In this document: positions 21,909-47,682 of the stretch, piece by piece
Layout of the letters: each line of letters opens with the position of its first letter
How positions within the stretch are numbered: position 1 is the stretch's first letter
NCBI RefSeq assembly: GCF_900116045.1
Contig: NZ_LT630450.1
Location: 2,690,501-2,754,500, forward strand
Source of the DNA: Desulfovibrio piger
GTDB lineage: Bacteria; Desulfobacterota; Desulfovibrionia; Desulfovibrionales; Desulfovibrionaceae
Reading direction: 5' to 3'
Length of the DNA: 64,000 nucleotides
Notes under the pieces: generated by a model
Databases searched by the model: none
Seen by the model: the letters and a program-made list of their open reading frames with translations, nothing else
Told to the model about the DNA's origin: nothing
Program-made: the position numbers and the translations under genes

Positions 21909-21984
21909 TGGAGCCCTTGACCAGGATTGAACTGGTGACCTCATCCTTACCAAGGATGCACTCTACCGACTGAGCTACAAGGGC
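21909..21984 (-). tRNA. tRNA-Thr(GGU), copy 2
   Basis: A 76-nt cloverleaf reads on the minus strand from 21984 with a perfect 7-bp acceptor stem (GCCCTTG/CAAGGGC). The anticodon loop TTGGTAA has anticodon GGT, the T-loop is TTCAATC, discriminator T, and the 3' CCA is encoded. It is identical to the copy at 22049-22124. Confidence 0.97.
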
Positions 21985-22048: not shown

Positions 22049-22124
22049 TGGAGCCCTTGACCAGGATTGAACTGGTGACCTCATCCTTACCAAGGATGCA
22101 CTCTACCGACTGAGCTACAAGGGC
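22049..22124 (-). tRNA. tRNA-Thr(GGU), copy 1
   Basis: An identical 76-nt cloverleaf to the downstream copy, offset by 140 bp, with anticodon GGT and encoded CCA. It is the promoter-proximal copy on the minus strand. Confidence 0.97.
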
Positions 22125-45710: not shown

Positions 45711-46104
45711 CAATTCCGGCAAAAAACTTTCGCGGACGCCTGCGCACCGTAAGGCCCTGTTGCACAATCTCGCCAAGGCGCTGCTTATCCACGGCCGCAT
45801 CCGCACCACCGAAGTGAAAGCCAAGGAACTTCGCGGCGTTGTCGAGCCGCTGATCTCCCTGGCCAAGCGCAACGACCTGCACTCCCGCCGTCTGGCGTAC
45901 CGTGTGCTGTGCGACTACGCTCTGGTTAAGCGCCTGTTTGACGAAATTGGTCCCCAGTTCGCCGGTGTGCCTGGTGGCTACACCCGCGTGATGAAGCTGG
46001 CCATGCCCCGCAAGGGCGATAACGCTCCCATGGCCATCATCGAACTGACCCGCCAGCCCGAAGCCAAGACGGAAGCTCCCGCCAAGGCTGAAAGCGCCGA
46101 GTAG
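45700..46104 (+). CDS. rplQ: 50S ribosomal protein L17
   Basis: This 134-residue L17 has [37 protein letters not shown], and [20 protein letters not shown]. An acidic, Ala-rich tail follows. The ATG at 45700 is the L17 start and lies inside the rpoA end. It is the last gene of the ribosomal cluster. Confidence 0.97.
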
Positions 46105-46150
46105 TTCCGATGACCGTGTCCGGCTCTGGCCGGACGAGGGAAAAGGACAC

Positions 46151-46186
46151 AAGGGCCCCCGCAAGGGGGCCTTTTTACGTTTTTGG
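46151..46186 (+). terminator. Terminator after rplQ
   Basis: A 10-bp stem with one G-T pair (46151-46160 with 46165-46174) has a GCAA loop and is followed by TTTTTACGTTTTT. It closes the ribosomal cluster. Confidence 0.9.
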
Positions 46187-46316
46187 GAGTATGCCGGCAG
46201 GGGAGGAGGGCGACCGCCCCTTCTTCGTCACGACTTGCCAGCAGGGGGGCTTTCATGGCATGGACGGCCTGTGCCTGTGCGGCGTTCTTTCATTGTTCAA
46301 CAAAGCGAGGTTCATC

Positions 46317-47375
46317 ATGAAGTTGCTGGAAAAGGCCCGGGCTGCCGGCTGAGCGGCAAAAATGGCTCCAGGGGCCCTGGAGCAGCTTTTGCGGGGCCTC
46401 GCGCCCCGTGGATCATCGGATCTGGAACAGCGTGTCATCGCCGGACGTGCCCGCAACGAGGACGCAGTGGTGGTGCGCATGCCCGCAGGCAAGGCCATCG
46501 TGCAGACCGTGGACATCCTGGCGCCCATCGTCAACGATGCCTTCTGGTTCGGCCGCATCGCGGCCTGCAATGCCCTGTCGGATGTCTACGCCCTGGGCGG
46601 GCAGCCCTGGTGCGCCATGAACGTGGCCTTCTTCCCCGCCTGCCTCACCGAGAACGATCCCGAAAACATCCTGGCCAATATCCTGCGCGGCGGCATGGAT
46701 GCCCTGGAAGAAGCCGGGGCCGTGCTGGCCGGCGGGCATACGGTGCAGGACGACGAGCTCAAGTACGGCATGGCCGTGACCGGGGTCATCGATCCCGGGC
46801 ATGTGGCGTCCAATGACAAGCTGCGGCCCGGCCTGCGCCTGCTGCTGACCAAACCCCTGGGCACGGGCATCCTGGCCACCGGCGTCAAGGCGCGCTGGGA
46901 CGATCACGAGGAGAGCGAGGCCCTGTTGCAGCGCTGGTGCGGTCGTCTCAACCGCATCCCCGGGGAGGCCATCGCCCGCTTCCGCATCCCGGCCGCCACG
47001 GACATCACCGGCTTTGGTCTGGGCGGGCATCTGCTGGAGATGGCGCAGGCCTCGGGCGTTTGCGTGTCCCTGCAGACGGAGGCCCTGCCCCTGCTGCCCC
47101 ACGCCCTGGAGTACGCCCGCATGGGCCTCATCCCGGCGGGCAGCCATCTGAACCGGACCCACTGCGCCCCGGCCGTGGACGTGGCGCCGTCAGTGGATGA
47201 GGCGGTGGAAAGCATCGTCTTCGACGCCCAGACCTCGGGCGGCATCGTGCTGGCCGTACCGGGCGAAGCGCTGGGGACGGTGCGCGACTGGCTGGAGGCC
47301 AGGGGCGAGATGGCCGTGGAGATCGGCGAGGTGCTGGAAGCGCGTTCCGGCGGGCCGCGTCTGCTGCTGCGGTAG
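46317..47375 (+). CDS. selD: Selenide, water dikinase SelD, selenocysteine-containing
   Basis: With the in-frame TGA at 46350-46352 read as selenocysteine, the frame from ATG 46317 encodes 352 residues. The N-terminus is MKLLEKARAAG-Sec-AAKM, where Sec12 and K15 match the catalytic C17/K20 pair of E. coli SelD. The rest follows the family: RNEDAVVVRMPAGKAIVQTV, the GGHTVQDDELKYG block and ATDITGFGLGGHL. It makes selenophosphate from selenide and ATP for tRNA-Sec. GAGG lies seven bases before the ATG. Starting at the ATG 46362 would remove the catalytic residue, so the Sec reading is favoured. Confidence 0.9.
46350..46383 (+). promoter_or_regulatory. UGA selenocysteine codon and bacterial SECIS hairpin
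   Basis: The UGA (46350-46352) is followed 12 nt later by a perfect 8-bp hairpin (46365-46372 with 46376-46383). Its 3-nt loop starts with G and lies about 20 nt from the UGA. This fits the known bacterial SECIS spacing and loop rule for SelB-directed Sec insertion. Confidence 0.8.
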
Positions 47376-47559
47376 GCGGGAGAGCGCGATCCGCCGGGGA
47401 AGGCTTCGGCGCTGCCCCCTTCCCGGGCATCGGGCTCCTGCGGCAGGGGGCCCGTCCTCCGTCCTGCTGTCCCGCTTTCCGCCGGAATGGCGGCACGGCG
47501 CCGTGCCCTGATGCTGCCGGTCACGGGCCTGGCCCCGCGCAGGCCGGGGCAGGGCAAAC

Positions 47560-47588
47560 TTGCGGGGGAAAAGTGTCTGTGCTATACA
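47560..47588 (+). promoter_or_regulatory. Promoter of tRNA-Leu
   Basis: TTGCGG (47560-47565) and TATACA (47583-47588) are 17 bp apart, with the tRNA starting 11 bp later. Confidence 0.65.
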
Positions 47589-47598
47589 GGGTATCTTT

Positions 47599-47682
47599 GC
47601 GAGAGTGGCGGAATTGGTAGACGCACTGGACTTAGAATCCAGCGGTTTATCCATGCGGGTTCAAGTCCCGCCTCTCGCACCA
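47599..47682 (+). tRNA. tRNA-Leu(UAG)
   Basis: An 84-nt class II tRNA has a perfect 7-bp acceptor stem (GCGAGAG/CTCTCGC). The anticodon loop CTTAGAA has anticodon TAG, followed by a long variable arm (47643-47657), T-loop TTCAAGT, discriminator A and encoded CCA. Confidence 0.97.

Follow-up and report, generated by a model that had tools for sequence, protein, structure and literature searches.

In the part of the 2006 survey of selenoproteins drawn on here (PMC1794560), SelD, the selenophosphate synthetase, is listed in Table 3 among the selenoproteins of Desulfovibrio vulgaris and D. desulfuricans, FdhA and SelD are given as the most widespread bacterial selenoproteins, and changes of selenocysteine (Sec) to Cys in SelD are described together with remnant SECIS-like structures past some of the Cys codons. 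The SPS/SelD proteins are classed according to which residue stands in the place of the UGA in the corresponding section of PMC4561486, where the bacterial SECIS element (bSECIS) is also named. The constraints on such an element, as set out in the available portion of a 2026 review (PMC13188914), are an apical loop of 3-9 nt on an upper stem of 4-16 bp, a G within the first two loop positions that is mostly followed by G or U, a distance of 16-37 nt from the UGA to the apical loop, and a minimum free energy of -7.5 kcal/mol or lower.

The window analysed here is a stretch of 64,000 nt of Desulfovibrio piger (contig NZ_LT630450.1), and the genome carrying it is a single contig of 2.81 Mb. One of its genes encodes SelD, in which a UGA at the position of the catalytic Cys is very probably read as Sec, likely under the direction of the hairpin that lies downstream. 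Compared with the D. vulgaris and D. desulfuricans proteins in the consulted part of PMC1794560, this would be the same selenoprotein of the same genus, again beside predicted FdhA selenoproteins, and the difference found is that of the species. The in-frame UGA in the SelD of D. piger is a correct observation and an ordinary one, of a kind already known and in a known genus.

The selD gene and its UGA codon

The frame runs from the ATG at 46317-46319 to the stop codon at 47373-47375, with no other in-frame stop besides the UGA (Table 1), which bears out the preliminary description of a UGA within a full SelD; its count of an ATG followed by eleven codons was one too many, the UGA being codon 12 and the eleven codons upstream including the ATG. 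The protein scored 313.6 bits with the TIGR00476 selD model of NCBIfam (cut-off 125), and both Pfam domains, AIRS and AIRS_C, were detected in it; with two other SelD models it remained under the cut-off (NF002098, 269.2 against 299 bits; NF010705, 130.2 against 291 bits). In the alignment, U12 and K15 fall on Cys17 and Lys20 of the solved SelD chain 3u0o, which we take to be the E. coli enzyme with these two as the catalytic residues required for activity, so that the placing of the UGA three residues before the Lys, at the Cys/Sec position, proved right as well. U12 also falls on a Cys of the solved SelD chain 2yye. Both chains belong to the same family by sequence, the motifs GCGCK and GCAAK aligning with GUAAK here, and they differ in that the crystallised chains have Cys where the D. 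piger protein has U12; the native Aquifex SelD (2yye) presumably contains Sec.

Table 1. Features of the selD locus of D. piger, with positions counted in the window
Feature	Position	Strand	Basis
selD, selenophosphate synthetase, 352 aa with UGA as Sec	46317..47375	+	TIGR00476, Pfam AIRS/AIRS_C, translation
In-frame UGA, predicted Sec codon (U12), catalytic Cys position	46350..46352	+	translation, alignment, codons of relatives
Lys15 codon, 3 residues past the Sec codon	46359..46361	+	translation, alignment, relatives
Internal ATG (Met16), start in the standard ORF list	46362..46364	+	table-11 ORF list
GAGG, Shine-Dalgarno-like, 6 nt upstream of the ATG at 46317	46307..46310	+	read off the sequence
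Predicted bacterial SECIS hairpin, 8-bp stem, loop GGC	46365..46383	+	fold, published constraints, pair counts in relatives

The table-11 ORF list begins selD at the internal ATG and gives 337 aa, with the active site lost, just as had been foreseen for a usual gene caller. A promoter scan from 46090 to 47620 returned no promoter, and the terminator-like match of the same scan on the minus strand (46383-46365) is the palindrome of the hairpin itself. The closest named SelDs among the matches listed, from which the window's own record may be missing, were those of two Desulfovibrio piger assemblies, with 95 and 96% identity. The gene upstream of selD in the window is presumably rplQ, and rplQ-like sequence lies near selD at 15 of 30 loci of relatives, the window's own included.

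The hairpin downstream of the UGA

Positions 46365-46372 pair with 46376-46383 around the loop GGC (46373-46375), the stem beginning 12 nt past the UGA, in agreement with the 8-bp hairpin and G-starting loop noted beforehand. When the bSECIS model in the available part of PMC13188914 is taken as the measure, all of its features fit: a loop of 3 nt on a stem of 8 bp, a loop opening with GG (the first G being invariant in a 79-sequence alignment), a UGA-to-loop distance of 20 nt, and an energy of -14.7 kcal/mol for the 21-nt piece (-27.3 for 56 nt); no difference from the model as given there was found. Single-sequence tests were less telling, in that 16 of 200 dinucleotide shuffles folded equally well or better (z -1.26), a stem of at least 8 bp at an allowed place arose in 102 of 5000 synonymous codon resamplings, and an energy as low in 223 of 2000. 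Taken alone, the hairpin is weak evidence and only moderately unusual, single-sequence energy tests being too weak to decide.

It is the conservation among relatives that lifts the hairpin beyond chance. For the pair count, 10 named UGA loci of other groups were set aside in advance; the 84 UGA loci from genomes of the order and the 11 remaining named loci collapse to 79 distinct stretches of 45 nt. In these 79 relatives, 95.6% of the 632 hairpin cells are paired and both partners vary in four of the eight pairs, while sliding the partner by 1-3 columns leaves only 18.7-51.1% paired; the covariation score of 0.181 (0.103 when shuffled) was reached by none of 500 shuffles, which kinship among sequences can beat without structure. 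A stem of at least 6 bp stands in the same register in 90 of 106 UGA loci versus 3 of 62 Cys loci, counts that include identical sequences, the window's own and possibly one assembly named twice. Among the 16 UGA loci off this register (less than 6 bp), 12 have a fitting stem of at least 6 bp elsewhere, and the remaining four (L030, L137, L158, L166) only one of 4-5 bp; the folds of L030 (-2.0 kcal/mol) and L035 (-4.4 kcal/mol) are too weak for the published energy limit. With synonymous resampling at 5%, the test was not beaten by 39 of 93 distinct UGA sequences and was beaten by 14 of 60 Cys sequences. On its fit to the published constraints and the both-side pair changes, the hairpin is a predicted SECIS, as the preliminary description had proposed, and would be bound by SelB.

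Some single loci deserve mention. L166 (genome G027) has a UGA-SelD without the standard hairpin, though selB and selC are present, and its best fitting perfect stem is of 4 bp with the loop GUU, one nt further on. L129 and L130, with the Cys codon TGT, are, when paired by hand, two of the three Cys loci that keep the register stem, and their hairpin is mostly retained, a single mismatch and a single G-U pair apart; these look like SECIS remnants of a Sec-to-Cys change.

Selenocysteine machinery of the genome

The preliminary description had called for a search for selA, selB and selC and had staked its reading on the presence of the latter two; all three were found in the genome. The gene selC scored 84.5 bits and was called tRNA-SeC by ARAGORN, the other match over the selC family cut-off being a tRNA-Ser; selB scored 323.3 bits, or 343.7 with its in-frame neighbours (cut-off 242.25), and selA (584.4 bits) and SelU/YbbB (345.2 bits) were above their curated cut-offs. 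Two FdhA (formate dehydrogenase) genes have a UGA in ARxUHxPT (ARVUHSPT and ARLUHGPT), and the large subunit of a NiFeSe hydrogenase has one in DPUxxC, both of which we take to be known Sec positions. Because selA, selB and selC occur together with these UGA-containing motifs, the D. piger genome would, as far as can be judged from sequence, decode Sec for further proteins too.

The genes selD, selB and selC are far apart in this genome; in three others (G018:C64, G033:C27 and G060:C139) they lie within about 3.2 kb. The Rfam search of the window at gathering thresholds found only three tRNAs. Two tRNA-Thr(GGT) with equal Rfam scores lie 64 nt apart on the minus strand (21909-21984 and 22049-22124).

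Distribution across the order

The genome sample comprised 149 genomes, namely the window's own and others of the same genus, family and order, and a SelD match at E <= 1e-20 was obtained in 116 of them; a selC count required more than 65 bits, which drops tRNA-Ser-like matches (of the 126 genomes above the Rfam cut-off, 8 fall away), and a selB count required a score above its own cut-off. The SelD has one in-frame UGA in 108 genomes, the position of which is among those read in all but 24, no stop at the position in six, and is unclear in two (G129 with many stops, G107 with the N-terminus missing). The codon was read in 90 related loci as TGA in 84, TGC in four and TGT in two, which supports the earlier reading of the UGA as Sec; the motif of Sec or Cys and then Lys is present in all 90, and the stretch upstream of the UGA stays SelD-like. 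Among the matches listed, at most 80 loci that have short patterns in common with the query in its Cys form and hence no census, 77 named loci comprise 21 with UGA and 56 with Cys.

Among the 108 UGA-SelD genomes, selC was detected in 104, selB in 103 and both in 101; the four without detected selC and the five without detected selB make seven genomes altogether, six of which are 77-89% complete and one of which (G016, without selB over the cut-off) is 99% complete. The six Cys-SelD genomes comprise one with both selB and selC (G017) and five with neither, and the 33 genomes without a SelD match comprise 19 with neither, nine with both, three with selB alone and two with selC alone.

The five Cys-type SelDs without selB and selC are those of G008, G062, G035, G086 and G046 (L129, L130, L155, L176 and L184), the last being a distant form with 33% identity. 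In these genomes no selC above 65 bits, no selB over the cut-off and no SelU match was detected, and their SelD would be an orphan with no detected user of selenophosphate. In G017 the SelD is of the Cys type (L168) and the genome retains selB and selC as well as an FdhA frame containing a single TGA, which looks like a Sec-to-Cys change with Sec decoding not lost.

A renewed search with the SelD family in the 11 genomes that have selC and lack a SelD match gave no match over the cut-off. Three genomes (G024, G074 and G088; L199, L200, L202 and L207-L218) are 99-100% complete and have selC and selB over the cut-off and no SelD above the family cut-off, and each has an FdhA-family frame with one internal TGA, recorded as present irrespective of its place in the frame. 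Searches with the SelD neighbourhood of L118 matched on the tRNA-Leu side in G024 and G088, where the contig continues without SelD, and gave no match in G074, where the missing SelD may be an assembly gap; two more stretches of G024, around selB and selC, gave a SelD match at chance level only.

Other readings of the UGA

If the UGA were a true stop, translation would start at the ATG at 46362 and yield a SelD without the catalytic residue and Lys15, and precisely this frame appears in the standard ORF list. Such an internal start is nevertheless very improbable, since the stretch before the UGA is SelD-like in relatives, with the Sec or Cys and the Lys kept at every locus read, and since GAGG precedes the ATG at 46317, whereas by eye no clear Shine-Dalgarno sequence stands before the ATG at 46362, which directly abuts the hairpin stem. 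The Cys that other SelDs have at the position of U12 would suit a decoding of the UGA as Cys, Trp or another residue by near-cognate suppression, independently of SelB; yet in the order as a whole UGA-SelD is found together with selB and selC, and the hairpin register is kept far more often in UGA loci (90 of 106) than in Cys loci (3 of 62), so that suppression is hardly to be expected at all.

Sequencing error or gene decay has the in-frame stop in its favour and nothing else, and its probability is close to nil, given the single in-frame UGA in the SelD of 108 of the 149 genomes (position read in 84), the UGA also in two named D. piger assemblies (L018 and L019), and a selD frame that is otherwise open. 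All three alternatives, an internal start, read-through without Sec and an error in the sequence, were thus rejected.

Proposed mechanism and significance

For the UGA read as Sec, the mechanism is inferred from the established selenocysteine pathway, to which the steps of SelB, SelA and SelD belong. SelB with GTP and Sec-tRNA(Sec), the product of selC, would bind the SECIS hairpin and deliver Sec at the UGA; SelA would convert Ser-tRNA(Sec) with selenophosphate into Sec-tRNA(Sec), and SelD, whose active site would include Sec12 and Lys15, would use selenide and ATP to form selenophosphate. As SelD makes the selenophosphate for Sec, its synthesis would therefore depend on its own product, and its translation would end after 11 residues when Sec is not inserted. 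The product likely also feeds tRNA selenouridine synthesis, because the SelU/YbbB gene is present. With translation past residue 11 dependent on the product of SelD itself, a positive feedback through Sec-SelD might make the selenium pathway an all-or-none switch governed by selenium supply, from which Sec-losing lineages would escape by a change of the UGA to a Cys codon, an idea that we consider improbable.

For annotation, the locus means that a standard gene caller loses the active site of SelD. The published pattern is extended to many genomes of one order, in which a UGA-SelD is accompanied by selB and selC and a Cys-type SelD mostly by the absence of both, and the Sec-to-Cys pairs within one genus lend themselves to tests of the contribution of Sec to SelD.
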